Shown: piece by piece, positions 7,031-64,000 of the stretch
How positions within the stretch are numbered: the stretch's first letter is position 1
Layout of the letters: each line of letters begins with the position of its first letter
DNA from: Chondrosia reniformis
Lineage: Eukaryota; Porifera; Demospongiae; Chondrillida; Chondrillidae
Direction: 5' to 3'
DNA length: 64,000 bases
NCBI GenBank assembly: GCA_947172415.1
Contig: OX359193.1
Coordinates: forward strand, 7,000,501-7,064,500
Notes under the pieces: generated by a model
Database searches by the model: none
Told to the model about the DNA's origin: nothing
What the model saw: the letters and a program-made list of their open reading frames with translations, nothing else
Position numbers and translations under genes: made by a program

Positions 7031-7862
7031 TGTTGAACTTACTTTCCTAACTTCTTTACGTACATTTTTACTGTGTAGTTATTAGCTAGTCTTCCTGTAT
7101 TCTGTAAGTATTACACTTGCCAACATCCCAACAGTCACATTGTAGCTTCCATGACTATTGTTCTAATGTTATTGTAGTACACTTAATGGATTGAGGACAC
7201 TTAACGACCTCCTTAATGTTGCCTATCTTTTAATGATTGAAATACAACCTTTGACTTATATATACTGCACATGACCAGTCATGCCAAGTTTCATTATGAT
7301 CTGAAGGTAGCTGTGATATAAATGTGATGACCACAGCTACAAGTGTGTATGTATTCACTGACTGTTCCACAATATCAAGGTATACGTATATACGTAGCTC
7401 TGACAGTTTAAAAGCAACTTGTACAAGTAGTATAGGTTATATATGTACGTATGTACAATAGATACAATTGGTACAATAATACATTCATACATACAAAGCT
7501 ACAATAGGCACAATGGTAAGGCAATAATCAGATTAATTGTGTTCATAGTGGGTTTAAAAGAGGTCGTTTTATTTTATTAATGGTACCTAGTTAACTTTCA
7601 CATTCGAAGATTGTATTGTATAATACCAAATCCCTACATACGTATATACTGTAAGTCAGTCTATATAGGAAAACAATCAACTAATTTTTAATATTAAAAA
7701 TTAATTCTGAATGGTAATAGATGAAATACGAAAGTTTACATGAATACACATCCCACAAAGCTACGTATGTACGTATATACGTATATATATATATGATATG
7801 TACTTACGGACCTTGATCTATAAATCAGAAGTACGTGGGTAATGTTGAACAGAAGTATACTA
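7031..7862. other. Intergenic: DLG 3' UTR and receptor 1 promoter
   Basis: No coding signal on either strand. AT-rich with many TACGTA/TATACGTA palindromes. Should hold the DLG 3' UTR and the promoter of receptor gene 1. No TATA box or terminator can be assigned with confidence. Confidence 0.5.
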
Positions 7863-10143
7863 ATGCTGCAGCTTGTCTTTTGTCTATCACTGACTATTAG
7901 ATCTGCAGTCACTTCAAAAACAACAGGTACATTTGTCTACTGTATATAGGAGCATTGCTACTAGTAGTATTATATATAAATGTGCTTTAATATTAGAAAA
8001 CTGTATATACAGTAGAACCTCGGTTATCCGAACCTCAATTAACCGGCTGGAGCAACCCAAGCGCAGCTTGTGGAGGAGTACGGGATCAGAAGTTCGACCG
8101 CTGGCGATATCAAAATTACATATTCATTAGGATGATTCACATATCCGGCCGTTTCACTTATCCGGCCATAGCTTGGTCCCATTGAGGCCGGATAACCGAG
8201 GTTCTACTGTAGTGTGTTCTGTTACATATGTGTAGTTTTAACGCAGGAGTAGACTTAAGTATATATATATATATATATAGTGGCACTGTTTATTAGAAGC
8301 TATTATACCAATATACATGTACATATGTAGCTGCCATATAAACATGTATGTAATTGCCATTTGCTCTTAACACAGTTAATTGTAGCCAATCAAATGAGTG
8401 CATACTTGTGTTGGCTGATTTTGAATTCTGCTGTAATGGCACTTTGACAAACCTATCACTGTATAAGGTGAAACCAAGTATCAATAAGATATTAATACTA
8501 CAGAGCAACAATAATACTCAACAAACACACTATACAGTAGTTGATGGAATAAACCTTACAGCCCAGCAGCTGCAGAGTACATCTGATATTCTCTCATTTT
8601 TAAATTTCAAATTGAACACCTTTGTTCACTCTGGCAATAAGATTGCTTTTGTCTTTCCCGGGCAACAGTCAAAAAAATCTTGTCAATGTACTACAAAAGA
8701 ATTGGCAGGTATGGTGCCAGATATTAATATCCTTACCACAAAGGTATCTGTTACATTGAACTCAATACCAACAAGACCTGAAGAAGCTTTAAGCTATCAC
8801 GGACCGGCTCCATTTACAGTTAAATTTGCATGCAAAAGTGAAGGTACGCAACCTTTTATACAACGCATGTCATCCCATGAATTTTGAATGTATGTATATA
8901 CATCTTGTGTGCATTATGACTCAAATATACATGAAAAATCTAAGATACCATTTTCCTACATGCTATGTCTATTCTGTAAAAGAGCCTATAGGGGAACTAA
9001 ACCTGAAGAGAGCTTTGGATGAAGATACAGGAGTCTTTTCTTCCTTCTTTTTCCTTCTTTCATCTTCTTCTCCACTGGGTCAGACAGCCGTTTCTGGGAA
9101 TTCCACCCTTCATCAGTGATCCTGGGAGTCTTTTTCTTTATCTTTATTTTGATCTTCTGTGAATCCTTGACATGTATGCATGTCATTTGCAAATTTGTAA
9201 TAATATTTAGATCCACTAACATCTGTTTTTTTATGTAGAAGTGGCTACAGGCCCAGGACCAGGTTTTAGCAAGCTGGAATTTCCGGCCACTATCATCGTA
9301 ACTACTGTCATATTACCAGTGCTTGTATTGATTGTCTTGTCAGTACTTGGAATACTGTATTGGAGACACAGGAAGAACAAGAAACAGGTTGTGAACTTGT
9401 CAGATCAACTTGAAAGTAAGGAGTTTCAGAATACGTGTGTTATAATTTAAACCAGTAACCATAGTAACCATTTATATGATTTAGGACCATCTCCTCAAGG
9501 AAATACTTCCTTGTGTGAAGATGAATACTCCGTACCAATGGACTGTATAGCACCACCTCCTCCTGTTTCTTCAAGACCAGTCAGGGATAAGGTAGGTCTA
9601 GATTAATATCATATGCCGCTATAATAAGTACATGTGCTCTCAAACATATATAGCAACAACATGGAAATACAAGACATGCAGATTGCTACCAATGTAGAAA
9701 CAATCATTCAACGGTGAGCATGTCTGTAAGGCTCTAACTGTTTCCATATCACCAGCACATTCATCTATATTTTCAAAAGATATGTGTGTTTCAGTTGATA
9801 ATTTGTTCTCCTAATAATGTAGGGAGAAATTGTATACTCAAAGTATCCACCTACTGCCCTACAGCCTCCAGTAGTGTCCAATGCCTACAGTACAGAACCT
9901 GTACTAGATAGTGCTAACAGTAGCTCCACACCTCAACCTGTGAAGTCACACACAGAAGACCAAGATGGAGATGTCAGCAAGGAGGAAGAGAGGAAGGAAG
10001 CCCTCTATTTTACACCTGAAAAGGGAGGGAGACTCAGTGAAACATCAAGTGACAAAGAAAATGATCCCAATGGGAAGACAGCCAATTTCTGTCCTCTCCC
10101 CCAGGAAATTGAAGATGAAGAAGGCCAGCAAGATATAAACTGA
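7863..10143 (+). CDS. Orphan single-pass membrane receptor 1
   Basis: Five exons: 7863-7926, 8376-8843, 9239-9415, 9485-9591 and 9823-10143, giving 378 residues. Exon 1 is a typical signal peptide (MLQLVFCLSLTIRSA). Exon 2 is an ectodomain of about 155 residues with several N-glycosylation sites (NCS, NGT, NLS, NLT) that I cannot assign to a family. Exon 3 carries a transmembrane helix (about residues 195-219) followed by basic RHRKNKK. The tail has a conserved VPMDCIAPPPP segment followed by RPVR, an SH3-ligand-like proline motif, and tyrosines in IVYSKYP and EALYF contexts that could be phosphorylated but do not match an ITIM exactly. The tail exons are paralogous to those of receptor 2, with near identity in the last exon. 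Function unknown; a signalling surface receptor is the inference. Introns 1-3 are phase 1 and the last is phase 0. Confidence 0.8.
8010..8209. mobile_element. pogo/Tigger-like MITE in intron 1 of receptor 1
   Basis: A 200-base element with terminal inverted repeats: CAGTAGAACCTCGGTTATCC at the left and its imperfect complement (GGATAACCGAGGTTCTACTG) at the right, flanked by a TA target-site duplication (8008-8009 and 8210-8211). No transposase ORF. TIRs beginning CAGT and a TA target are typical of Tc1/mariner-pogo non-autonomous elements. Confidence 0.9.
8928..9166 (+). repeat. Dispersed repeat, copy B
   Basis: Second copy of the repeat at 718-947, lying in intron 2 of receptor gene 1, about 8.2 kb away. 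Long stretches are identical (for example around CTGTAAAAGAGCCTATAGGG), with differences concentrated in a CT-rich block. No target-site duplication or terminal repeat could be fixed by eye. Confidence 0.8.
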
Positions 10144-10650
10144 AAGTTATATAAATTATTCCATGCATCAGGTATTGTTATTATCACTGTATATGTACTT
10201 CATAAACAAGTCAGTGTAAGTATACACCACACTTAGCACTTCTCGAATAATAATCACTACACCATTTTTCTTATGTTATACAAAGCTTTATTTACAAAGG
10301 AAACTCAATTTAGCTAATTTGTATTATACACGTACGTATATATACAGTGCAAGTTACAATATACTAAGGTAATCTAATATAAATAAATAAATAATTAAAT
10401 AATATATATATCTTTTCAGAGTTGAGCTATAAAGACTGTTCACATATACATTATATAGTTGATAAAGTTGGAGTTATTATAGTTATTAGTAGGAGGTGCC
10501 ACAATTATTAATTTAATTTCTGTTTCAGTAAATACATTCGTAGAATGAAGAGGAAACCGTATACATATATATAAATAGCATTTTAAGAAGCCCTTGCTGT
10601 GTAGTTGTTGGTCTGTTGGGTTGCAGTAGTTAATATTGAAGACAAGAAAT
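10144..10650. other. Intergenic between receptors 1 and 2
   Basis: About 500 bases of AT-rich sequence with TACGTATATA motifs and no coding signal. It presumably holds the 3' end of receptor 1 and the promoter of receptor 2. Confidence 0.5.
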
Positions 10651-12921
10651 ATGCTCATGGTTATATTGTTTCTTCTGAAAATGTCATTTTTAAGCACATA
10701 TGCGTCTGAAGGTAGAGTGTCTTTTATTATCAAGTAGAGGCTATTTAGTTATCTAACTATATACGGTATATATACTTAAACCACCTGCACTTGACAGCAA
10801 CACTGAAAGTATATAAATATTAGTCTTTATTGCTGGCTTTGTAATATCACAGAGCTATACTGGATATGTGCAGCCATCACTCCTTACAAAGCTAATATAT
10901 ATATCTCTGCTCTGCTGACAATATAAAACTATACCTTTGCCATATACACACCTACATATATATATCTATATCTATTGAAGGATTTATAGTTGTTGTAAAA
11001 TCTAAAGTATACACAGATATAACAGTTATGAGGTAATAATTTTTTGGATCTATATTAAAATAACAAGACCATTTAATAACTATATACAGAGCTAATTTAT
11101 ACTCACTACGTATGCATGCATGTTTTAAGATGTTCATATGTAGTTCCAATATATTTAGCAAGCTGTTCTTGTGGAGTTATTTCTACAAGAAAACAGTTCT
11201 ACTGTGAAGGAAATGTAGCGGAACTGTATGAATTAATTACAGACAATCAGAGAAATGCAATGCCTTCAGATAAGCTGCTATTACAAGACACTTCAACAGT
11301 AAAATCCTTTTCTGGTGAAAAGTTAAAGGGATTGTCTGTTTCCTGTACAAACACAATAGGAATTCTTCTTGACCCTAAGTTTGAAAATAAGCCTTGCAGC
11401 TATAGCTATTGCAGAGAACATATGGAAGATTGGTTCTCTAAAGACAATCATTATGATGTAGTACAGTGTCCAGAAGATCTAGAGGTTCAGCGTGGAATAG
11501 ATTATATCATATGTGTCAATTCTCCTATTTTGAAGATTCTTGTAGAGTGCATGAATTTCTGTGACAATACCCAAACACAAGGTATAGTGTGCGTTTTATC
11601 ATACATGTACATACTGTACATATGTACTAATGAAATAATGCAAAATTAATGCCTATTTCTATATATTGTTTGACCTACAGTAACTGATGCCCAAAGATTT
11701 ACACTGGCAGTATCATTTGCTGCTATATTTGGAACAGTAATAATTTTAGGTGTTGCTATAGCGATAGGTTTGTGGTTTTATAAGTCCAGGACTAACAAGA
11801 GGAGACCTCAGGAAAACCTAGCTCAACAAGACAGTGAGGACATTCTATATTATCATCTTATTATATATAATATAGAATGTCCTGCATGTCCGTAATGATA
11901 TATATATTATACATTACGGACATGCACTGTATATCTACATATAATATTATGCTGATATATACATATATAGGGCCATCCCCTCAAGGTAATGCTGTTGTAT
12001 ATGAAGAGCTTCCCTATGATACACACGTCACTGACTACTCCATACCAGTGGACTGTATAGCTCCACCACCTCCTGTGGGCTCTAGACCAGTCAGGGAGAA
12101 GGTAGATAAACCAACAGACTCAACTGTCCATACATTTCATTCTTAGTATGTAAGGGTGAATGAAGTATCAGGTTAGGGCCTTTCCCTAGTAAATATAGTA
12201 TGTAATAGTATATATATGTAATAGATAGTCTATGAGTACATGGCCCATGCAGTGGAGAAAAAAAGAAAAGAATCTTATAACTGCATCCTCATTCAAATAA
12301 TTATAGGTTTGCCCTAATTAAGCCATGAAAGTTTATTCTTCATTGAGTACATGTTTAAATATTTTTTAGAGTACGTTCACGCATAGTTCCAGTGAAATGG
12401 TATTGTTATTATGATGTACCCATATGTGAGCTTTTAATGGCTCAACCTATATATATGTTATATATGAGTATGTTATGTAGCAACAAAATGGCAGAGACTG
12501 TTACCAATGTGCCATTAACAATCAGTCAACAACTGTGAAATCAGTAAGCTTAATTCAGATAATCTAACTTTACATGAAATCTTGGCATGGAAATGCATTC
12601 ATGTAGGGAGAAATTGTATACTCAAAGTATCCACCTACTGCCCTACAGCCTCCAATAGTGTCCAATGCCTACAGTACAGAACCTGTACTAGATAGTGCTA
12701 ACAGTAGCTCCACACCTCAACCTGTGAAGTCACACACAGAAGACCAAGATGGAGATGTCAGCAAGGAGGAAGAGAGGAAGGAAGCCCTCTATTTTACACT
12801 TGAAAAGGGAGGGAGTGAAATATCAAGTGACGAAGAAGATTATTTTCATAGAAAGACATCCAATTTTGGTCTTCTCCCAGTTGAAAATGAAGATGAAGGC
12901 GACCAGCCAGATATAAACTGA
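10651..12921 (+). CDS. Orphan single-pass membrane receptor 2
   Basis: Five exons: 10651-10711, 11159-11581, 11681-11833, 11971-12101 and 12607-12921, giving 360 residues with the same intron phases as receptor 1. Exon 1 encodes a signal peptide (MLMVILFLLKMSFLSTYA). The ectodomain is Cys-rich (about ten cysteines, including CSC near its start) and has no visible similarity to that of receptor 1. The transmembrane helix is about residues 170-195. The tail repeats the conserved IPVDCIAPPPP and RPVREK motifs and the final exon is nearly identical in DNA to that of receptor 1 until the last quarter, where they diverge. The C-terminal tyrosine context becomes EALYFTLE, a YxxL motif with Ala rather than a hydrophobic at -2. 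Donor 11833 could also splice to the extra module at 13970. Ligand unknown. Confidence 0.8.
11837..11925. repeat. Two adjacent hairpins in an intron of receptor 2
   Basis: Inverted repeats 11837-11883 (arms AGGACATTCTATATTA and complement) and 11884-11925 (arms GCATGTCCGTAATG and perfect complement), placed back to back three bases after the splice donor at 11834. Confidence 0.85.
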
Positions 12922-13969
12922 AAGACTCTTTATATATACACACTATCAGTATTTTACTTCATGCATAAATTATTATTTATATTCATAATTTGGTAAACAA
13001 GTCATTTTCTATATATACACCACGCTTAACTCCTCTCAATATGAAAATAATCATTAACAGTCCTTATTCATTTAGTGCATTATATATTATATGTAATATA
13101 TTCCTATACTAATCTCAATTAATTACCATTCACACAGTATGAGTAACAACATACTTGTAACATGTAATACGGTATATACATCTGTGTACATATGTAATGT
13201 TGAGCTATATATATATGTTTACATTATTTTTATAGGTCATATCTTCAATAAGACAACTCTATCAGCTTTCTTTGCATGTAGCTACTACAGTATAACTTCT
13301 GTGTGGACATGTTACTGTATGAGACTTTATTAAGTACATTGAATGAATAAGGAGTGCTTGTTGCGATCATTATGAGAATATAGCCTTATTCACTCTCAAT
13401 AGGGCTTTATTCTCATGCAAAAAGATTGTAGCTTATATTAATCAATCAATACTTTCTTTCTCCTGTGCAGAGTTATAACTATCTTATTGTACGTATATGT
13501 ACGTATATGCATGTATTCATAAATTTGCATGGATACTTTTATAAGTATATATTTTTCTTTTAGAAATTCATCTTTTTACTTTTTGGAGTGTCACAGTTGG
13601 TTAAAAATTTTAGACATTCCACCACTGGGTCTGATCTTGATGAAGAACCACATCCGCCATGTTAAAACGTTAGATGACGAGCTTCCAAAAAGATATATAG
13701 CTTAACAAATTATAAGATTGAATAACTATATAGACATCTTTTGTTTGAATTGATCAATTTCATTATAAGATAATTATATAGAAATACTAGTAAGAATCAT
13801 ACGTAGGTCACTTGTTTGTAAGTAATGTTCACCGATCGGCTTCCCCTCACCCTGACTCCAAAGACTATTTCTCTTCTGTTGGTGATATGTAACAGAGGAT
13901 TATTGGGTAAATGACATGTAAATATAGTTAGTATATATTGAGCAGTATATGATTGATTAATTCTTTTAG
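12922..13969. other. Gap upstream of receptor module 3, no ectodomain found
   Basis: About 1 kb in which an ectodomain exon (about 420-470 bases in genes 1 and 2) would be expected if module 3 were a normal gene. No open frame of that size with a phase-1 exit exists here on the plus strand, and no signal-peptide exon is seen. A short open piece at about 13563-13660 with an acceptor is not convincing. AT-rich with TACGTATATG motifs. Confidence 0.55.
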
Positions 13970-15700
13970 GAGCAGCACACAATTCAACTGATTTTGAGGT
14001 CTCCTTAGCATTTAATGGCATATTTGGAACGGTAATAGTGATTGCTATATTGCTGGCCATCATTACAATACTCAGTCTCTATGTTCGCAAGAAAAAGTTG
14101 GAAAGAGCTCAACAACTTAATCGTAAGTGTTCAACTAAATATGCATGCATATACAGTATGTATATGAACTTCATGCAGTGGTTTAAGAAAAGGTATAGAA
14201 ATAATAATATACCTCTTTTAAAGAAAATCACTCTTTATGAATAATTGTAGAGTCTCAATCATCAAATGGACCACATCCTCAAGGCAATACATCTATATAT
14301 GAGGAGCTTCCAAATGTGGCTATCACTAAGTCCTCTAAACCAGCTTCAGTGGACCTTAATTTACCACCACCTCCTGTGACAGCAAGACCAGTTAGAAGGG
14401 AAGGGAAGACACGTCTAATGACTGAAGTACATATTACACTACACATTGAGGATAAGTATATACTAGTCTATTTTAAACATGTTATGAAGCAAAAAATGGC
14501 CAAGACTGCTACCATTGTGGTTACAGTAATCGGCCCTCAGTTGTGGAACTAATAAACTCCAGTTATTTGAATTGTTATGGAAACTAAGTTCCTAGATCTC
14601 TGTATATACTTTTGTATGCAAGAACATATATGTATATGATATATCCTGCATTTATATATAAACTAATAACTATATATGTACCAACTTGGTATGCATTGTT
14701 TATGTACGTTGTTATATATTTACAGGGTGAGGCTACGTACAAATATCCATTCACTACGGCTGGTTCCTCGTCACAAGAAGCATCCAATTTGCAGCCTGTT
14801 CTAGAAAGTACAGATGACGTGTCACAAACTAGAGGAAAGGTCAATGCAAATAAATGATGATGCAATGGTTTACTTCTTCTTTAAAGTTACAGTTGCATGC
14901 AATCATAGTTTCTCTAATTCAAATATTGTACATATGTAATAATATAGGTGAAAAATGCTGGCAGAACAGATTTGGGCCACTACAGACGTGCTCAGAGTCA
15001 GTCATTTTCTATGAAATCAGTGAGGTTTAAATATGTTATTGTGCACATGCTACAAAATCAAAACAGGTTTCTTAGCTAAAGTTTCAAATTAATTTATTAT
15101 TTGAATAGAGCATATACATAAGCATATGAATAAACATTCAATTTTATGCACTTTCACTTTCCTTAAAAATAGAGAGGAGTTGTACACACTGTACATATGC
15201 CCACTAACTTACAGACAAGAACATTCTTGAGCACGTCCAGCTCACAGCCTGCCTTAAAAGGTGACGAGAAGAGTAGTCAGGTGTCATTTGATAGGGAAAA
15301 GGATACAAGAAACGATGGAAATCCTTCTTGTCAGGATGCTTTTAAAATGGATGGCTATGCTGTTCCAATAGACTGTATCCGTTCCTCCACTTTTACAAAA
15401 AATTCTTATGAGAAGATGAGGTTGACCCGGTCACTAAGAGGAACGCCTATCAGAAGCCATGGCAACCTACAAAGGAACTTACCAGTCTCTACAGAGAATA
15501 ATGCTGCAACAACAGAGATGACTAAGACTGATTTAGAAGAACATTTCCATAGAGGAGAAGAAGGTTCTCCTAGTTGTAAGGGAGAAGATCATGATATTAA
15601 AAAGAGAAAAGGAAGTACACAAGAATCCCGCTATCATTTCATCAAGGAAGACCTAGAAAGTGGTACCTTCTGTGAAAATACAATTGTCAAAGAAACATAA
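13970..15700 (+). CDS. Receptor module 3: transmembrane and tail exons without an ectodomain
   Basis: Exons 13970-14122, 14251-14426, 14726-14839, 14948-15019 and 15173-15700. The first is exactly 153 bases and phase 1 at both ends, like the transmembrane exon of receptor 2, and encodes a similar helix (shared IFGTVI). Next come an SH3-ligand-like LPPPPVTARPVRR, a GEATYKYP block equivalent to GEIVYSKYP of the other two, and a long unique C-terminus that again contains YAVPIDCI. Either this is the 3' part of a third receptor whose ectodomain is missing or was not recognised, or it is an alternative 3' end for receptor 2, whose exon 2 ends in the matching phase 1. Intact frame and good splice sites argue against a decayed pseudogene. 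Confidence 0.65.
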
Positions 15701-26711: not shown

Positions 26712-28454
26712 ATGGCGAGCGGTAGCAAAGCAACAGTAAACTGCAATAGCGAGTCACAGGTTACCGAGGAGAGGGAGTTAGTGCTTCTTTTTAATGGCTC
26801 ACAAGTTCGAAGATATCCGTTTTTAAGTACTGGCCAACAATACATAATAAGGAGTACAGATATAGTTGCAAATATTTCAGCTAAATGTAGAGGAAGTAGC
26901 CTCGAGCTGTCTCTGTCAGACAATATCGTCATCGAACCGGTGCAAAACGCGTCCTCAGTCCCCGTCTATTTAGAGGAAAGGAGTTTCTCAGTTTCGCAAC
27001 TGCAGCCTCTCCTGGACTGGAGGGCCCCCATGGCCACAGAGGAAGGCAGACATTGCGGGACGCGTGAGTCCAGCTACCCGCGAATCGTATCGTTCACAGG
27101 TATCGTGACCTCCAGGAGATACATAGAAGACTCGAAGAAGACTGCCCCTGCAGTAAGGCTTCTAGAAGATCTAGAAAGTGATAATATTTCACCAGAAGAC
27201 AGGCTAACGACTATAGGGATTTTAAGAGCAAGTTACAAGGAATTTGAATCTCATAAAATCTGCCCAGTCTATAATACCCATGAACTGGAACTTCAAGTTG
27301 TGGATCTAGTTTCTCCCGATGTTATAACAGTATTCTGCAATCTTAAAAGTATACCCCAGCCAACATGGCTGGTTCCAATGACCAGAGTGACATTTAACAA
27401 GTTTCTTTTAACCAAATCACTACAGTATGATAATGTATATTGTACACATACACCAATGTCCACAATGATGCCTGCAAGCTTACCTGGTGCTGAAGAGGTT
27501 GCATCATCACTGCATTTGAGGTCAAATGTACCAGTCGTCTACATTTCCCAACTTTTCCAAGATGTTCTTACCTTGAGGGCCCATCAATCGTGTATTGAAC
27601 TACGTGGGAACATCCTTAGTACACTACATTTGAGTCTAAAGTTTCAGTGCGATAGCTGCAATCAAGTTGTTGTAAATGGTCAGTGTAGGGAGGGATGTCC
27701 TTCAGCTAAGAAAACTGTCAGGGAAGATGCAAAGTAATACTTTCTCTGCTCACCTTTTTGCTTATGCATCCATTTTGTTTCTTACAACAGGTTTCTATTT
27801 TTTGATGGAAGTGGCGAATGTGTGGTCTGTTGCCATGGTGATGTAGTCAACAGTGTTCTTGGGATATCCAATCAAGTTTGGACTGGTTTTAAAGACTCCA
27901 GCAAGAATGTTGGACAGTTGATATATGCCATGCACACTCAAGCATTAACACAAGTATCCACTCTGACCGAAATCTATGACATCAGTACTCCTGTGAGTCG
28001 TATACTCACTTCATCTATTACTTCACTGTGGTGACTATAGATATGTTTCAATTTAGGATTTGAGTAAAAGGAATACTTTGCTGTCAGACTTTGCAAAGCA
28101 AGTTTCTTGCAGTGATGTCCACAGAGCTCTCAGAGTGGTAGGACAACCCTTTGTACCAGCCACAGAGCTAGTTCAAAAAGGTAAACTCAGAGAGCCCAAC
28201 TTGTGTGACTTTGTGTTGTGAGAAAGTGTGTGGTTTAAAGTGCTTACAGATAGAATGGTAAATGGTACACTATCTGTTTATCTCGGTTAGGTCTTCCTCG
28301 AACCAGGCAGCTCTCTGTGAGTGGAGGGAGGTCTCTTAGTTTGTTGAGCATACCAAGGTTGCATGTTAGACTGCTTCATGCTGAATCCATTAACTACATC
28401 AAAGAAGCAGCCTTACTTATGGAGGAAAGCAATCTGTCGTCCTCATCAAGATGA
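26712..28454 (+). CDS. CTC1: CTC1-like CST telomere protein (short form)
   Basis: Four exons: 26712-27733, 27791-27992, 28057-28180 and 28291-28454, 503 residues. The C-terminal part looks like the last OB folds of CTC1, the large subunit of the CST complex that binds single-stranded telomeric DNA and aids fill-in synthesis. FLFFDGSGECVV followed by VLGISNQVWTGF resembles the human FLEDGTAEAVV and LGLCPREW region, and RLHVRLLHAES resembles RLRLSCLSIRES near the human C-terminus. A Cys cluster (CDSCNQVVVNGQCREGC) lies just before, where CTC1 has a zinc-binding insertion. Human CTC1 is about 1217 residues; this model holds only the C-terminal part. The ATG is preceded by an in-frame stop (TAATTAA just upstream), so the short form may be real or upstream exons may be missed. 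Family call is from similarity by eye. Confidence 0.65.
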
Positions 28455-34556: not shown

Positions 34557-35810
34557 ATGGAGAAATCGCCAGAAGCAAGTTGGGAGCTCGAGAAGAGTCA
34601 CGGGAGAGGCAAGGGGTCTGCTATCAATGTGCTCATCGTGGCAATAGTGTTGGTGTTGTGTGGAGCAGTTTTGTCACTGATAGTTTGGAATTTCAAACTT
34701 AACCTCCAAATTCATGATGTGGAGAGTGAGGTATGTATTGTAGTATATGTGCATGCATGCTGAAATACTGTGGTATATCTAAAGAATTGCAGTTATTGGT
34801 TTCTCGGCACTTAGCATTAAATTATGCTAATCATTGCAGATAATCCAGCTCAAATTTGAAGACAAAAACCAAACTTCTGATGACAAGAGAAATTACAGTT
34901 AGTTAATTTAAGCCCTTAATACATGTATGTATACAGCTCGTGCCTGATATCAGCACTGTCTGTGATCTATTAAGAGGTAGCTAGTTTCTGTTATTACTAG
35001 AATGTTTGTGAGAGCAAAATTGATATACCACTATTGGTATAGCATTATGATTATGTTGCATATTTATATCTGCTTCTCTTGTGAAAAATGTTTTGTATAT
35101 GCAGGAATGAGAAGAAGCCATCTTATTGAGGTTAGATACTGTATGCCTTATAACCTTAGTAAGTTTGACCATATGGTTTGACTTCTTGTCGATGGGCAAG
35201 CAGCCTCAGACATTCAGTTGTGACAATTCTCTCTCTTCAGGAAGATCAAACACCATCTGCTCATGTAGTTACATGCATCAATGGATTCCAATCATTGGGG
35301 AACATAGCCGGTAAACACATTTTATTCTCTTAATGAGTATCTCTTTAACCAAATTTCTTCACCTCCTATTTCTTCCTAGCTGATGGTGTTTTGACCAATT
35401 TCTGGTTGGCTAGTAACAGCGAATCAGATGTCAACTGCAAACAGACTCACAAAAATATTATTCATTGTCAAGGAAACATGACACTTGAAGATGGAAGTTA
35501 TCTAAAAGTTCCTCGAACTGGTATATACCATGTTTATGCTCAGCTGGGCCTGGTCACTCACCATACCCCAACACCAGGATTTAACATTGCCAGAATATGC
35601 AATGGTAGTAGAACTGATGTATTAGAGACATTTGAGACTGCATTCACCTCAAGAAGGAATCACCTATCTTATCCTTTCTTAGCTGGAACATTCCAGATGG
35701 AAAGGGGGTGTGGTTTTGCTATTACAATAAACACTTTTAAATTTGGCAGACAATTGCAGTTTTCACACGAGGTGTCCCAAACATTTTTGGGCGCATTTCT
35801 TGTTCACTAG
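34557..35810 (+). CDS. TNF-superfamily ligand 1 (type II membrane protein)
   Basis: Five exons: 34557-34730, 34840-34897, 35105-35130, 35241-35310 and 35380-35810, 252 residues in frame. A short cytoplasmic N-terminus is followed by a transmembrane helix (about residues 22-46, INVLIVAIVLVLCG), a stalk encoded by two tiny exons, then a TNF homology domain that opens with PSAHVVT (strand A), holds YLKVPRTGIYHVYAQLGL (the conserved G-x-Y-x-[VI]-Y-[SA]-Q strands) and ends FLGAFLVH. This start and the FxGAFLV end are diagnostic of TNF ligands, which act as trimers on TNF receptors. A second gene and a spare head exon lie downstream. Confidence 0.93.
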
Positions 35811-41958: not shown

Positions 41959-43910
41959 ATGAACCCGGAGTGTGGTCAGACAACAAATAAGTCCTCTCAA
42001 GTGGGAGCTAGCTCCAGAGGGAAGAGTCTGGCACTGGTCATATTTGGACTTGTGGTAGGCATTGTTGGTTGCAGTTTGGTAGCTGGTGTCAGCTACTATG
42101 CTGGTAGAGAGTCTCAAAACAAAGGAGGGGTGGAGACAGGGGAGTTTAATTGGGTGAGCCAGCTGCATCATCTGTGGTTGTAAATTATAGCCCTATAACA
42201 AGATTCATACTGTAAATAATAGCCCTATAACAAGATTCATTATGTACACACCCATCCTTCTAAAATAACCTTAAAGAGGTCAGAATATATTCGTAAAGGT
42301 TCATCCTGGCCTTTATCTAACCAGATACAGACAGATCATGGGGTTATATGACATACAGGTGGAGATCGTTGGTAGTTATATAGACTAACCATGGCCTTAA
42401 ATGATGTGTAAACGATGTGCGGTGCCCGGCGATATAAAAGTGGATAGGATCACGTGATGTCAACAAATAAATATACGTAGCCTAGAATACAATTTAGTGC
42501 TCGAATCGACCATACGACGATTGTACGTATTCAAACCGTAGGCTACTAACCCTTAGATTCGGCTTCTTAAGGACGTCACGTAACTAGTCACACTGCTTAC
42601 AGGATCGCTGCTAGATCTTTCTTAATAAGTTGTGTGTTAAAATGGTCCTACAAATCTGTAACTTTGTAGCTAGACCTGAAGTATTACTGAGATTGGAGGA
42701 ATGAAGTCCAATATTCATTCTATTGATTATTCATCTTTTCATTGATTTACCTTTGCACAAGCAATATGCAATTACTTTCCATTTTCCATTCACTTGCAGG
42801 ATGATGTTCAGCATGATCCAAGCAAGGTTGTCAGAAGGAATGGTGAGCTCAGTTGCTATATCTACTTGTGCAGTGCAGTTTGTTATCATAGCTATCTTTG
42901 TATGTATTTAGCCCCATGGCAATGCAGTTCCAGTCTTAATGGAGTATGTTAACCAGATATACTTTATTGTTAACCTGACTTATTTTATCAAACTAGATTT
43001 GGTACAAAGTAAGGATTAACCTGCTGTGCATGATAAATGCAATTTTGTCCTTTTTCCTTTAGACGCCTGCTGCCCATATAGTTGGAAGCAAACCTCCCTT
43101 TGCCCATCCATCTTCACCAATTAACGTGACAAGTTAGTTTTCATTTCATTCTTACATTAAGTGACACACAGGTAGTGCAGTAGCACATGGGTGTAGCCAC
43201 AGGTAGTGCAGTAGCACATGGGTGTAGCCACAGGTAGTGCAGTAGCACATGGGTGTAGCCACAGGTAGTGCACTAGTACATGGGTGTAGCCACAGGTAGT
43301 GCAGTAGCACATGGGTGTAGCCACAGGTAGTGCAGTAGCACATGGGTGTAGCCATAGGTAGTGCAGTAGCACATGGGTGTAGCCACAGGTAGTGCAGTAG
43401 TGCATAGGTGTAGGCACAGGTAGTTCACAGAGCGACCAAATGTACACCACTCTTGCAGGTCCGTGGAGACAGGGCAGTCGGATCATACCAATTAATCTCA
43501 GTTGGACGTGCACTGGATCACATGCAATTCTGAAGGGAGGCATGGTTGTGGACAGCCATGGTTACCTCACTGTACCAAAAGCTGGAGTGTACTACATCTA
43601 CAGTCAACTGCTGATAATAGACCAACGAAGCAACCGTCTTGTCCCCCTTGGGAGCTCAACCCTCAAATCAACCAAGAACGGGTGGAGGGTGCTCATGAAG
43701 ACATCTGTTCCACTTGGTATTCTTCATGGTGGATCAGGAAATGAGATGAGTGAAGCAAGTACATACCATGGGGGGCTGTTCCAGCTAGATGCCAATGACA
43801 AGATAGGAGTGCAACTAAACAATTTTCAGCGTTTTGTTCCGGAGCAAACTGTGAAGCTGGTCAATGTCAACTCCTATTTTGGTGCCTTTCTAGTGGATAG
43901 CTACAACTAA
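41959..43910 (+). CDS. TNF-superfamily ligand 2 (type II membrane protein)
   Basis: Exons 41959-42153, 42800-42842, 43063-43132 and 43459-43910. Residues 1-22 are cytoplasmic, then a transmembrane helix (LALVIFGLVVGIVGCSLVAG) and a Gly-rich stalk. The third exon is 70 bases, as in ligand 1, and opens with TPAAHIVG. The head exon has GYLTVPKAGVYYIYSQLL and ends YFGAFLVDSYN. Exon 42800-42842 ends in phase 1 but the next must be read in phase 0; ligand 1 has a 26-base exon making the same transition, so a small unseen exon between 42843 and 43062 is likely (or donor GTTGTC at about 42827 is used). An AATAAATAAA signal lies at 43920. Intron 43133-43458 contains a minisatellite. Confidence 0.88.
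43166..43425. repeat. Minisatellite, about 31-bp unit, 8 copies, TNF2 intron
   Basis: Unit CACAGGTAGTGCAGTAGCAC followed by ATGGGTGTAGC. It fills nearly all of the 326-base intron before the head exon. The minus-strand ORFs across it (LPVATPMCYCTT) are artefacts. Confidence 0.96.
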
Positions 43911-44382
43911 TTGTGTTACAATAAATAAAATGGTCTTGGAGATTGTGTTACATTTTCCTTCCACTGACAGTCCCAATCTAAATATTTGTAACTGTAAACT
44001 TATTAATTTAAGTGTATGCTAATAATTTTAACAACATAATAACATGCCTTTTTGTGTGTCTTGCTGATTGAAACTACCTTGGAGACCAATCCAATCTGTA
44101 TAACAGTTCAGTTTTACAAAGTTATTTTTTGTAACATTGGAATAAATAAACCCTGTGTATTATCTGCTACTAGATTGATACATATAGAGAGAGATTCAAA
44201 CCATTTTTATTGTATATATATGAAGAACTGTGCTTACTCCTTAATATTTTGTGCATGCACACATTGAAATGGCTATGTATTATTTATTAATAGTGACTTC
44301 TCCTTCATAATGAATTAGTTTGCAAGCCCCACTTGCTTGACTATGAATGAATCTTGATTGTATCATTTTTGATAATACATAG
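43911..44382. other. Gap before the spare TNF head exon
   Basis: About 470 bases. Contains polyadenylation-like AATAAATAAA at 43920 and AATAAATAAAC at about 44141. No membrane-anchor or PAAH-type exon was found here. Confidence 0.5.
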
Positions 44383-44861
44383 GTTGGGAAAACCTGTATG
44401 GCCAAACTTTCACTATAATAAACTTCACAGAAATTCATCCTAGGAGTTACATCAAAGGAGTGCAACTTTGTCATGGACAAGGGACTTACATACAAATTCA
44501 AACTTGTGGCTTGTATCATATCTACAGTCAGGTAACATGGAGGACAGGAAGGATGGTACACCCAGCTGCCCATAGACAGGAAGGTGCACAGTTTGGTCAC
44601 GAAACAATACTTATTTCATTATCCCATCTAAAATGCCAATGTGGTGCAGTCAAAAGAAAGATCATACGATACAAAGAAAGACTTTTAGCGACAGAATATC
44701 CAATATTACCAAGCAGGAATCACTATGGTATCACTTCGGTCCAGTCGGGGGCTTTCCCTTTGTGTAAGGGAGACAGAGTGTACATTCAAGTCCTTCCGCT
44801 GACCCCATGCTGCATCAGCTACCTACCAGAACACACCTTCTTTGGACTGCACATGTTATGA
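44383..44861 (+). CDS. TNF homology-domain exon without anchor exons
   Basis: One phase-1 exon beginning after ATACATAG and ending at TGA (44859-44861). Encodes about 159 residues of TNF head: INFTEIHPRSYIKGVQL, then the hallmark CGLYHIYSQVTW, KGDRVYIQVLPL and the end EHTFFGLHML. Compared with ligand 2 it has extra cysteines (CQCG; TPCC). No upstream exon for membrane anchor or strand A was found, and its phase matches the donor at 43132 of ligand 2, so it may be an alternative last exon of that gene, or the 3' part of a third gene. It is open and intact. Confidence 0.75.
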
Positions 44862-45467: not shown

Positions 45468-48400
45468 TTAAATTAGATTCTGTCTTAGCCTCTGTTTACA
45501 ATTCACTGAACATACATTAAATATAAAAGGAAGTTCTTTCATAATACTGGGACAGTTCTCAACTGCTCTTATTAGCCTCATTCCAGATCCATACATTGGC
45601 TTGCGACACATCTGACACTCCTTGCCACGGCAACTATAACAAATTCACATAACAGAGATGTACTTTCAGACTGTACTACATATTCTTAGGGGAAAATGTA
45701 CAGATAATTTTAACGTTCATGAGCTAGAGACTAAGAAAAGAAAAGAAAAAGGTAAAGACTCCCTAGATCACTAATGAAGGGTGGAATTCAAAAGAAAAAC
45801 TGTTTGGTCCAGTGGAGGGAGAAAAGAAAAAAGTTATCCTCATCAAGGTTTACAGGTTTTCCCTAAGTAGTAAAACTCGAAAACTATTTGCATTCTTTCT
45901 TAACCTCATATTGATGTCAACCATTATCATAATAAATACTCTACTTTCCTAAAGACTTTATTGGCATCACTGTAACCATTTAGTTGTAGGATCTAAAGTG
46001 ACAGTAGAAACTTTAGGGATGCGGATTCACATACATAATATTCATTATCTCAGCTCTTACAAGTACAACTTCTATTTTTAAGATTCACTTCTCAAATATA
46101 GAAACCTTGGTGTATTTTTAATTCCCACAATACATTTATCTTACCCTTGTAACCATTGAGTAACTTCAAAAGGAAGTCTCTGCATTCTCCCTTTTGAGCG
46201 GTCAATACATACCAGACACATATCAAACAACCTCTAAAAAGGAAGAAAGAAAGTGAATATACGTACGTACATTGCAATTAATCCAAGGTACATAATGTAA
46301 TGTATATAATTATATATATATATGTATGTATATACGTATATCATATTAGATGAAAGTGATAGTGGCCAACCACAACTACTGATTTTGTGGCTTTTATGAA
46401 GTAAATACATTTTTGGATGCCAATAAAGCATTTGTAATAGTAAATTTATGCATTTTGACCTGAGGCCTTCTTCAATGAAATCCATGAATGTAATTGTGGT
46501 TACCATTGGCTGGTTTCTAGTCATTTCTCTCCAAAGCAAGGGATGCATGAAATTGTTTTCCACGTTTAGCTGCTTCAGTTTCAAATTAACAGCACTACTT
46601 GGCAAGCCTGCTAATTCATTTCCCTGTAGATATAGCTTCTTCAACTTGCTAATTAAGGATGCAACAAGAAGAAAGATACACAAAGTTAAAAATGTAATAA
46701 AAAATGTAAGGTTCAGTACACAGCAATGCTTTCAATCATAAACCTTTTACCCTGTGAATGGCCGCAGACAAGTGAAGTCTGATCTTTACATAGTAATGTA
46801 GCAATATCAACAATATCTTACAAGACATCTTTGTATTAAGAAAAACAAGCTGCGAAAGTGAGAGAAATTTAATTGAATCCTTCATTTGCAGACATACCTT
46901 AATTGGTTTAGATCAGTTGAAAGCCATTGAATGCTATTGTGAGCCACATCAAGTTCCACCAAAGACTTTAAAGTGTATAATCTGAAACAGTTAAACAGAT
47001 TCCATTACCTCTTGTAAGGCTACAGGTATTGGCAAACATAAGAGCAACAGAGCCAATTCAGAGAAACCTAAACCATCTCTAAGACTTCTTCACTAAAAAA
47101 TTAAAATTCTAGTGTAGATAGCCTAGATATAATTGAATAAAAAGGTATTGGAAATCAATGTGTTGTTAAAAGTTGATTGCACCCTGCTATTTGTATGCAT
47201 ATTGGTGTGAGTTGTGTCATCTGTTTGAGCTCGACACACTCACCCTTTGGGCAGACTGGACAGCAGGCAAAAGGAAACACAAAGAATTTCTAATTTTTTT
47301 AATTTGGAGATTGCTAAAGCAAAACAGAAAATTGGAAAAGATAGATATACGGGTACATCATTGTGTGCAGGGTTTGTGTATAATTATAATGTTTGGGTAC
47401 ATGTGCACTAACAAACAAGGTCAAGCTGATATTCAACTAGAAACATGATGGATAAGTGGATCTTGGTCAGCTACCTATCAAGTCCAGGACCACAGGTTTA
47501 AACCACAACCATTTTCTTTCACAGATATGTGGCTAGATTCTTACTACTACTACTCTCTCTCTCTCTCTCTCTATCTCTCATATACACACAATTCATACAC
47601 TCTCTCTTATATTCATATGCCCTGTTTGTAAGAGTACTGTATACGTATATTTTTATCAACTGGCCAGCTGATACTAGTCAGGTACTAGCTTGTGTGAGCA
47701 CCTTCCGGTATCTCTTTCAGTGGATTGTTCCTCATCTTCAAACACACAAGTTGTTCTAATGAGAGAATGGTGAGGGGAAAGGTCCTCAAGTCATTGAATG
47801 AAACATTGAGGTACACTAGAGTTGTGCTCAGAGGAGACAGGTCGGGAAGAGTTGAGATGAAGTGAGCCTTCAAACTCAGTATGTGACCTCCATTCAGCAT
47901 ACTCTCTATAACAGCTAGCTCAGCTGGAGTTGCAGTTCCATCTGGTTCAGCTATAAAGACCATAAGTAGATTCATTGTGTGTTGACTAGTGGACAGACAT
48001 GCCATTTCTTACCAAAAGGAGACCCTGTTCTTCCCTCTCCACAAAAGTACTTGGATTTGCTAGCATGAATAAACCTTGACTTCTCTCCAATCAGATCTTG
48101 CCATCTATATAAATATGTGCATTTAGTGGCTGCAACTACACCATTTCATAATGACCCAGTTTAATTGTATAGGCTACTAGGAATTGGTGTTCTACTTAAT
48201 TCATATACCAATATAACGGGTATACCTTTTACTCCTTTCTTCTAACTCCCTTGATATCTCAGCAGATGGCTTTGGCTTAAAGCCAATTTCAGCTTGTTCA
48301 GGCATGTCTTCCAGTAACACTTCTTCTAACAATGCCTTTAGTTCTAGAAAACACATTTAGAGGTGTATTACGGATATGCATGCAAGTGTGCAACTCAGTT

Positions 48401-60667: not shown

Positions 60668-62504
60668 TTATGAGGAAATAACTTCATAGTCTGTCTTCTT
60701 GCCTCTGTTTCTAAATCGCCCAATGATGTATGCAATCACCACAATGATGACGAGACCTGCTAGTGCAGCCCCAACTGCTATGGGTACTATGATATTATTT
60801 GGGAGGTCGTGACTGCATTCCCTTACATCTGTATATACAACAAGAGATTGAATCATTAACATATGACCACCCAGTGCCATTTGGGGACAGCCATGTGACT
60901 GTCATGTGACAGCCATGTGACTGCCATGTGCTCTTAGAGCAGTATAAACCTACCACCAAAGTCGTTTCCTTTGAAATGGAATGCTTGGATTTGAAAGTTA
61001 TCAATAGTAACACTACCAGATGTTCCGTTATCTCCCTTTAAGTCACTTAGGTTAATACTGCTACACTTGTAGGACTGGAAGTCATCAAGAGTATAGATGT
61101 CTCCTTTTTTAGAAATCATTCCCTTTGGAACAGTGGCATTCACAATGGGAGGTGTGCTGTTAAACCTCACATTAACTTGATTTAAAGTCCATATCTTTTT
61201 TGTAGCATTCTAATTATGCAAGATGTACAATCAATCAACAATTGTACATACTAAACTCCACCGTTATATGCAGGGACTACACTAAATAGGGAAACTCTGT
61301 ACAAGATTACATTTGCTGCAATATGGTTATTTTCTTTTCTCTACAGTCAAGGAATTCAAACTCACAGCATTTAAAAAGAAACTGAGGACAAAGTTCTCTT
61401 CATTCCAAGTAATATGAACAGTCAAGTTTGCATTATTATTCGTCAGATTACCAGTAATGGTCACAGAGCTAGAGTTGGGCAATGCCAGGTTAGCCGTTGC
61501 TGTCACAGTCTTGTTGGTACCATCCTGTACAAGGAAGGACTTGCCTTTAAAAATGTCATCAAAGGTAACTAGGAATAACTACAGATATGACTTACGACCA
61601 ACAAACAGAGCTCGTGAATATAAGGCCCTATCTCTCAGAGATTAACAAGTAGGTCTACATAATATGTAGACCTACCTACCTATGAATATGCACAGCCTAA
61701 ATATACATACTATGCATATTCATGCATCACTGTACATACGTACGTACAGCCATTTTGTGTTACTGGTGTGGTTGAATAGAGCTATATAGCATTGATGGGT
61801 GAACATGTAGAAGTAATGGGTTATTTCACAGTGAAATGTTTGATGGAATGAAAATATATACAGTCTCTTAGATGTAGTGCACAATTACATATTTTCTCAA
61901 ATACATCAAACAATACTGCACAGAAATCAACAATTACAACTTTTCTATTAATGTCAGCCATTTTAGTCTGTAATTTTGACTTTATCTACTAGTGTGACAG
62001 CAGAAAACATTTCATTTTTTTCCTTTTCTATCTCCCTCCTCAGGAAAGCAAATCAAAAGTAACTATAAATTTGCCAATCTTCTCAGACTACACTGTTGAG
62101 TATACACCAAGTGTCTCTTACCTTCTGCTGGTATGTCAGCTGAATATTCACGGTGCCCTCGAGGTCGAATAAGAGTACCGTCTTATTTTTCGGGTTGTAG
62201 TACTTGTAGGCATGCGGACTGGGAGTTGGTGTTGGAGAAGGGCTAGGAACGGTCGAGGAGTGTACCGAAGTTACGCTATCAGAAGTTGTGGTACTAGCTT
62301 GTACGGAAAAACTTGGGGTAGGAGCCAGCGAGGTGGAACCGGTGGCACAGGAAAGGTAGCCTGTAAAATCGTTGCGAACAGAGGGAAGAATATAACATTT
62401 TAAAAACTGACATAGATATAGCCGATAAAATCAGAAATTACTGAAGGTGTTTCAACTGCGCATTTACCTATTAAAAGTAGAAAAAGCAATTCCCCTTTCA
62501 TCAT
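60668..62504 (-). CDS. LAMP: LAMP-like lysosomal membrane glycoprotein A
   Basis: Exons 62504-62468, 62360-62122, 61524-61366, 61209-60954 and 60828-60668, 283 residues. Signal peptide KGELLFLLLIG; a Ser/Thr/Pro-rich mucin-like hinge (TPTPSPHAY region); one LAMP lumenal domain with DLEGTVNIQLTY, NKTVTATANL, CSS and FQIQAFHF followed by a conserved Cys (REC); then a transmembrane segment PIAVGAALAGLVIIVVIAYIIGR, close to vertebrate LAMP1. The tail is short, ending DYEVISS, with a YEVI tyrosine sorting signal (YxxPhi) for lysosomal delivery. It has one LAMP domain rather than two, like CD68/LAMP5. Tandem with LAMP-B. Confidence 0.93.
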
Positions 62505-62849
62505 GGCGGCGGCTCTTCTTCTTGGTCCCGATCACGTGAATGCTCTTGTGCAACTTCAATCATCGATTACGAAATCTCGCAGGGTGGTGTATGTAACCAT
62601 AGATTATATATGATGTAACTTTGTTGTATTTTGCACTTTCTAGACTACCTTCAGATTTCAACTCACACTAGCTCACAACCATATAAGTTATGCATATAAG
62701 TATGCGTCTCTAGACACTCCCAAAGTCGAAAGATGACCCTTCCAAAGATAACCATATAAGTTATCACAAATTTATCATTCCATTTTCAGCAAGCTGTAAT
62801 CACACTTGCCTTGTGTACATATAATATTAAAAACACAATAGTCTTATAG
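62505..62849. promoter_or_regulatory. LAMP-A promoter region with CLEAR-like E-box
   Basis: Includes TCACGTGA at 62533-62540, 29 bases upstream of the LAMP-A ATG. TCACGTGA is the consensus CLEAR element bound by MiT/TFE factors in lysosomal genes. The rest is AT-rich and holds the LAMP-B 3' end. Confidence 0.6.
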
Positions 62850-64000
62850 TTATGATGAGATTACTTCATAGCCACCCTTCTTCCCCCTATTTTTGACTCT
62901 TCCAATTATGTATACAATCACCAGTATTGTCACCAGACAGAAGAGAGCTACTCCAGCTGCAATTGGTGGTACTATGGAGCTAGACTGAATACAATTCCGA
63001 GCATCTATTGCACAGCAAGAGAATATAGTGAAGTGATACGTATAACCACCCCATGATAATCTTTCAGCACTCAAAACAGTAATCACTTGGAATCAGACCA
63101 GTGGCTGTAAGCTTTTAGATGTTGTACTATTGAGCTAACACATGCACAATGAATTGTGTTTACCTGTATAGCTAGGTATCTTAGTCATGTGACTGTCATG
63201 TGATAGATAAAGAAACCACAACATTTAGATAGGAACTTACTGTCACGGTTAAGGCTACCTCCATCTCTAAATTCAAAAGCTTGAATTATAAAGTTGTGGA
63301 AATGCATATTAGCTGATGTTTTATTTTGGCCAGTTAGTTGGAGTGGCATGCTAGCATCAGAATCACATCTATAAGCACGTTCAAATTGTGAATGTATTTT
63401 CTTTGCATCTGGACCATCCACAGAAACAGTTCCATTATCAATTGTAGCGTTGTGAAGAGGGTCTGTGTTAGTAAAGTATAACTGTATTTTATTAACTTCC
63501 CACATCTGCTGACCTCTTACATAATCCTAGAAGAAGTGAAGCAGACATATTATACAGAAAAAATACCACTTTGTTTCCACTCACAGCATGTAACAAGAAA
63601 GTTAAATTAAAGCATCCCTTCCTCCAAGCCAGGGAGACATTTAAAAATCCATCTGTTGAAGTTTTTTTCAGATTACCAGTAATGGTCACAGAGCTAGAGT
63701 TGGGCAATGCCAGGTTAGTCGTTGCTGTCACAGTCTTGTTGGTACCATTCTATACAAGGAAGGACTTGTGTTCTCAATGTAGCAATGCACTCAGAATAAC
63801 ACATACATGTATCTATAAAGATTACTCAGATGAAGTCTGCCTGTGAGATGTATTCATTTCATAATATATCGCTCTTGGGAGAGCACCTGGACAACACTTA
63901 CCTTCTGGAGGTAGGTCAGATCAAAGGATATAGTGCCTTGCAGTTCAAAGAGAAGAACTTTTGTACTATACTTGTATGTATAAGGATCAGGGGGTGGCTT
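62850..64000 (-). CDS. LAMP: LAMP-like lysosomal membrane glycoprotein B, cut by window edge
   Basis: Exons seen: 64000-63902 (partial), 63749-63585, 63526-63241 and 63004-62850, reading KPPPDPYTYKY, LLFELQGTISFDLTYLQK, NGTNKTVTATTNLALPNS, a lumenal half with CDSDASMPLQLTG and FIIQAFEF, a lumenal Cys (RNC), and the membrane anchor PPIAAGVALFCLVTILVIVYIIGR. The tail ends GYEVISS, the same YEVI sorting signal as LAMP-A. Exon structure is the same as LAMP-A. The signal peptide and mucin-like hinge lie beyond 64000. Confidence 0.92.

Follow-up and report, generated by a model that had tools for sequence, protein, structure and literature searches.

How do two neighbouring genes come to share one stretch almost letter for letter when the exons around it have drifted apart? 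The question is raised by a pair of putative receptor genes, here called A and B, in the demosponge Chondrosia reniformis. They lie in a stretch of 64,000 nucleotides (nt), C5:7000501-7064500, which we refer to as the window; positions below are counted within it unless a contig is named. The sequence comes from odChoReni1.1, a HiFi assembly with a primary quality value of 69.8 according to PMC12181767, and represents one haplotype of one individual. Genome-wide searches covered 117,379,552 bases in 15 contigs. The best overall account, which we consider very probably right, is that A, B and a third gene, C, are an old tandem triplet with a common tyrosine- and proline-containing tail, and that a patch of A and B was recently made alike by gene conversion between the two loci.

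The gene models were built by hand from splice signals and reading frame, and their exons are listed in the table. Gene A (7842-10143) encodes 405 amino acids (aa) and gene B (10651-12921) encodes 381, each in six exons that follow one another in identical order, with intron phases 1, 1, 1, 0 and 0. In both, an exon with the start codon and a putative signal peptide is followed by one ectodomain exon, one transmembrane exon and three tail exons. By hydropathy, the receptor models contain a single strongly hydrophobic stretch, and B and C show a weak signal peptide; the three products are probably type I single-pass membrane proteins. The predicted receptor anatomy of A and B is supported at the level of the hand models.

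A repeat search finds the patch as one direct repeat of 215 nt with two mismatches (99% identity). Both mismatches change an amino acid (V/I and P/L), and every silent position is the same, which bears out the near-identity of the last exons described in the sequence-only reading. In a codon alignment of A and B, from which gapped codons are dropped, 205 of the 207 nt and 67 of the 69 aa of the patch are identical, with no synonymous change in 46.8 sites and two non-synonymous changes in 160.2. Zero changes place the silent divergence of the patch at or below 6.2% (95% upper bound). The rest of exon 6 is a different matter: 82 of 105 nt and 20 of 35 aa are identical, 5.0 of 19.2 synonymous sites differ (synonymous divergence, dS, 0.32), and the ratio of non-synonymous to synonymous divergence (dN/dS) is about 0.77. 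Exon 4 gives 84 of 105 nt, 9.0 of 25.8 synonymous sites and a dS of 0.47; exon 5, which is gappy and has just 8.0 synonymous sites, gives 37 of 48 nt, 4.7 synonymous differences and a dS of 1.1. Pooled, the alignable tail outside the patch carries 18.7 differences in 53 synonymous sites, as against none in the patch (rounded, 19/53 versus 0/47; Fisher's exact test, p = 9.5e-7). Further upstream the two genes can hardly be compared. The transmembrane exons, which the earlier reading had called clearly diverged, match at 63 of 147 nt, saturated; they are related but far diverged. The ectodomain exons, in which it had seen no similarity, can be aligned only by force, with 140 of 324 nt matching; this alignment is saturated and no better than shuffled sequence, so that no meaningful dS can be given for exons that do not align; exon 1 matches at 28 of 60 nt. 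Distant homology of the two ectodomains, hinted at by a cysteine spacing weakly alike by eye, was not borne out by that comparison.

The distribution of mismatches tells the same story. Over 470 aligned columns of tail, with 59 mismatches, the longest run with two mismatches or fewer is 214 columns; the longest in shuffled alignments is 135, and none of 100,000 shuffles matched the observed run. With exon 5 left out, the result stands (Fisher's p = 1.3e-5; 0 of 100,000 shuffles), as it does within exon 6 alone (p = 0.0013; 0 of 100,000). The left edge of the patch lies six bases into the intron ahead of exon 6, and the right edge at a 6-base indel in the middle of that exon. Because the patch is flanked by diverged but homologous sequence, upstream in exons 4 and 5 and downstream in the remainder of exon 6, it sits inside an older duplication. 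And because silent identity is confined to a single patch, which begins within an intron and ends partway through an exon, gene conversion is supported. Base error is an unlikely source of the pattern, given the quality value of the HiFi assembly.

Mechanistically, a repair event would have copied about 215 bp between A and B, and recently, if silent divergence (below about 6%, 95% bound) is the guide. Copying would have been confined to the stretch in which A and B had stayed alike enough to pair, and would have halted where the intron had diverged, on the left, and at the mid-exon indel, on the right. The two amino-acid changes would then have arisen after the copying, or been present already in the copied allele.

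The sequence-only reading had named very strict selection as the other possible cause of the identity. Such selection, extending to silent sites through an RNA element, a splicing signal or an overlapping frame, would fit a left edge that falls near a splice acceptor. Yet it would need to end in mid exon, next to a remainder of exon 6 with the dN/dS given above; the RNA fold of the A copy is no better than that of shuffled sequences (z -0.88; 36 of 200 as good); neither copy is overlapped by an antisense stop-to-stop frame of at least 75 aa, shorter frames lying outside the listing; and the patch has no DNA match in gene C. We regard selection of this kind as very improbable, and silent-site constraint was rejected as the main cause on the folding of the A copy and the DNA comparison with C. 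Of the pair of causes first suggested, conversion is the one that stands.

Gene C (13825-15700; 386 aa), the third tandem member, follows B and has a longer tail. Its model is tentative, since three donor sites appear weak on inspection by eye, and in it exon 1 joins the transmembrane exon directly, with no ectodomain exon between. This invites a quite different arrangement, in which the locus is a single complex gene. Splicing would join the ectodomain exon of A or of B to the transmembrane exon and tail of B or of C, and C would serve as an alternative tail. The absence from C of a visible ectodomain exon and of a clear signal peptide would agree with this, and the junctions are all phase 1, so the phases agree too. 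A and B, however, each have their own start exon and stop codon in the hand models, and we think the arrangement unlikely. A duplication of the exon 5-6 pair within C was also seen by eye, but the shuffles give it weak support (111 of 2000 as good for exon 14948-15019 against exon 5 of B; 182 of 2000 for exon 14726-14839 against the last exon of C), and it is not claimed.

Within the limits of search sensitivity, the tail occurs in three genes of the genome, A, B and C, which lie side by side in this cluster. Exon 4 of B and exon 4 of C, used as queries, each find three places, all in the cluster, the latter reaching the A place at E 0.32 only. The last exon of A finds two places and an unrelated match (E 2.8); the ectodomain of A finds itself and one match with stops (E 1.6); and three further queries, namely the ectodomain and transmembrane exons of B and the last exon of C, each find nothing but themselves. 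The limits are plain from the cluster itself: a search with the transmembrane exon of B recovers neither the A nor the C counterpart, and one with the last exon of A passes over the last exon of C, to which it is likely related, so that far-diverged members elsewhere could escape. No Pfam domain reaches the cut-off in A, in B or in the last exon of C, the sole exon of C scanned; A gives nothing, and B gives FixQ, MAGE_N and zf-RING_UBOX below the cut-off (E 0.22 to 1). PDB sequence searches return no convincing relative; the best match of A is TNFRSF13C (E 0.087), over the end of the ectodomain and through the transmembrane helix. Among the literature matches listed, no title names the A/B/C family, although the protein sequences were not themselves searched for in print. 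A, B and C are an orphan group of three sponge receptor genes, two of them with a tail that resembles an immunoreceptor tyrosine-based inhibitory motif (ITIM).

The ITIM follows the pattern [ILVS]xYxx[ILV]. It is matched by VVYEEL in B, and by SIYEEL and SRYHFI in C. Gene A has LCED where B and C have YEEL, and contains no match to the pattern. Because the ITIM-like site of B and C is absent from A, A may signal differently; B and C could have an inhibitory role, and A another. All three tails contain YxxP (YSVP, YSIP and YAVP), and from such motifs it is plausible that the tail recruits SH2 and proline-binding proteins. The ectodomains of A and B would bind different extracellular partners, and the tails would feed one pathway of tyrosine kinase, SH2 and proline-binding proteins. 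No charged residue was seen by eye in the transmembrane helix of A. The VPxDCIAPPPP and RPVR block, put forward earlier as the signalling handle, is located in exon 4, outside the near-identical exon.

Several points weigh against this account of conversion in a family with a common signalling tail. The conversion event is inferred from a single sequence, that of one haplotype of one individual; the gene models derive from splice signals and reading frame; and the putative function of the tail follows from general motif rules. Finally, a 200 kb sample (5,000 N) of contig C1, which is 10,409,357 bases long, shows no clear coding case of such a patch. In that sample, the scan listed 19 rows of near-identical neighbouring pairs, none clearly a coding pair. 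Sixteen had at least three hits in the 264 kb compared; the three two-hit rows comprised one of 381 nt without an open frame, and two of 401 and 140 nt open in one copy each. This background scan is a weak control: in the window, it listed a patch in a LAMP-like gene pair and missed that of A and B, probably because BLAST joined the latter to its less alike remainder.

The LAMP-like pair (60671-63768, minus strand) counts in favour of the conversion account, as it resembles A and B in being a tandem with one near-identical patch next to diverged sequence; it differs in belonging to a known family and in its shorter patch. Lamp2_2nd and VAS1_LD exceed the Pfam cut-off in the copy at 60.7-61.2 kb, and fall just or well below it in the second copy. 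The patch (61443-61543 versus 63668-63768) is 101 nt long with three mismatches, and outside it the copies align over 45 aa at 64%, over 33 aa at 33%, and otherwise in short pieces. It starts about 20 bases ahead of an apparent splice acceptor in the second copy; the likeness to the A/B patch is uncertain because the frame of the first copy is open throughout. Another parallel is provided by SIGLEC11 and SIGLEC16, described in PMC5701461 as neighbouring receptor genes in which conversion has made one stretch far more alike than the rest. A and B are likewise neighbours with one converted stretch. But in the SIGLEC pair, on that description, the ectodomain exons are converted and signalling differs, whereas in A and B the converted stretch lies in a tail exon, between genes with unrelated-looking ectodomains.

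What, then, of immunity? The earlier reading pointed to paired or polymorphic recognition receptors, as in immunity and allorecognition. On such a view, shared signalling would keep the tails alike while diversifying selection acts on the ectodomains. In its favour are the tandem membrane proteins, their unrelated-looking ectodomains, the ITIM-like motif in B and C but not A, and the nearness of TNF domains, of which the genome search found three, all 20-29 kb past gene C. The nearest architectural likeness to A and B is fester and uncle fester of the Botryllus fuhc locus, where, in the account given by PMC12065747, fester, uncle fester and FcoR are clustered membrane receptors, with ITIMs in some partners; fester and uncle fester have equal architecture and dissimilar outer halves, that of uncle fester being without similarity to fester. 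The Botryllus receptors, some of them highly polymorphic, contain Ig and sushi domains, whereas no known domain was found in A and B. Against the proposal, the search, within its limited sensitivity, turned up three genes, with each ectodomain in one place, no Pfam domain over the cut-off and no convincing PDB relative. Classical paired receptors, moreover, share ectodomains and differ in signalling (as set out in PMC5701461), and A and B do the reverse: the closely alike, homologous ectodomains of paired receptors are not found in them. Polymorphic or paired immune recognition is therefore not supported, and we consider it quite unlikely. A more elaborate version, a sponge recognition locus in which orphan receptors would swap a phase 1-1 ectodomain exon while conversion holds the tail, some members bearing an ITIM and others lacking it, next to every TNF ligand that the genome search found, seems to us very unlikely. 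If the ectodomains proved variable, A, B and C would become candidates for sponge recognition machinery; nothing here shows variability. The patch is best read as ordinary conversion in tandem duplicates, which is common and by itself no proof of an immune recognition system. It is a clean natural example of conversion confined to what two old duplicates still have in common.

Table. Exons of genes A, B and C and the two copies of the probable conversion patch, in window positions
Feature	Position	Strand	Remarks
Gene A exon 1, with start codon and putative signal peptide; ends in phase 1	7842..7926	+	GT donor; hydrophobic window mean 1.81
Gene A exon 2, ectodomain, symmetric 1-1, 5 sequons (N-x-S/T)	8376..8843	+	hand model
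Gene A exon 3, transmembrane helix, then basic residues	9239..9415	+	hydropathy 3.07
Gene A exon 4, PQGN / YSVPMDCIAPPPP / RPVR block; LCED, without ITIM-like tyrosine	9485..9591	+	
Gene A exon 5, DCYQC block	9654..9713	+	
Gene A exon 6, last coding exon, stop	9823..10143	+	
Conversion patch, A copy	9817..10031	+	differs from 12601-12815 at 2 of 215 nt
Gene B exon 1, start and weak putative signal peptide	10651..10711	+	no window reaches the 1.8 hydropathy threshold
Gene B exon 2, ectodomain, symmetric 1-1, 10 cysteines, no sequon	11159..11581	+	hand model
Gene B exon 3, transmembrane helix	11681..11833	+	hydropathy 2.6
Gene B exon 4, ITIM-like VVYEEL, YSIPVDCIAPPPP, RPVR	11971..12101	+	
Gene B exon 5, DCYQC block	12481..12543	+	
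Gene B exon 6, last coding exon, stop	12607..12921	+	
Conversion patch, B copy	12601..12815	+	pairs with 9817-10031
Gene C exon 1, a tentative exon without clear signal peptide, phase 1 to transmembrane exon	13825..13906	+	
Gene C transmembrane exon	13970..14122	+	
Gene C exon with PQGN, ITIM-like SIYEEL, LPPPPV..RPVR; donor weak by eye	14251..14412	+	
Gene C exon, DCYHC block; donor weak by eye	14490..14539	+	
Gene C exon with GEATYKYP; likeness to A/B exon 6 suggestive	14726..14839	+	
Gene C small tail exon	14948..15019	+	hand model
Gene C last exon, containing YAVPIDCI and SRYHFI; probably corresponds to A/B exon 6	15173..15700	+	

Other features of the window and genome may be noted briefly. 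The three TNF-domain frames occupy 35349-35807, 43401-43907 and 44376-44858 on the plus strand, a span of about 9.4 kb, and are 23-25% identical in their main aligned pieces; genome-wide, PF00229 (E <= 0.01) finds these three places and no other. A TNF ligand and a putative receptor have been reported from C. reniformis (Pozzolini 2016, as cited in PMC7674686). The TNFR cysteine-rich domain occurs genome-wide (E <= 0.01) in two places, C8:6127070-6127183 and C3:6781836-6781928, on other contigs than the TNF cluster. TNF receptor identity for A and B, a candidate prompted by the nearby cluster, was rejected, as Pfam finds no TNFR_c6 in either. At 8008-8211, within intron 1 of gene A, lies an element of 204 bp whose inverted ends match perfectly over 23 bp; it looks like a small non-autonomous transposon, and no further exact copy of its 21 bp end words occurs in the window. 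A short dispersed repeat occurs at 825-918 and at 9046-9139 (intron 2 of gene A), with an inverted partner at 45737-45833. Lastly, an open frame at 26712-27734 on the plus strand matches CTC1 of the CST telomere complex (E 2.9e-13).

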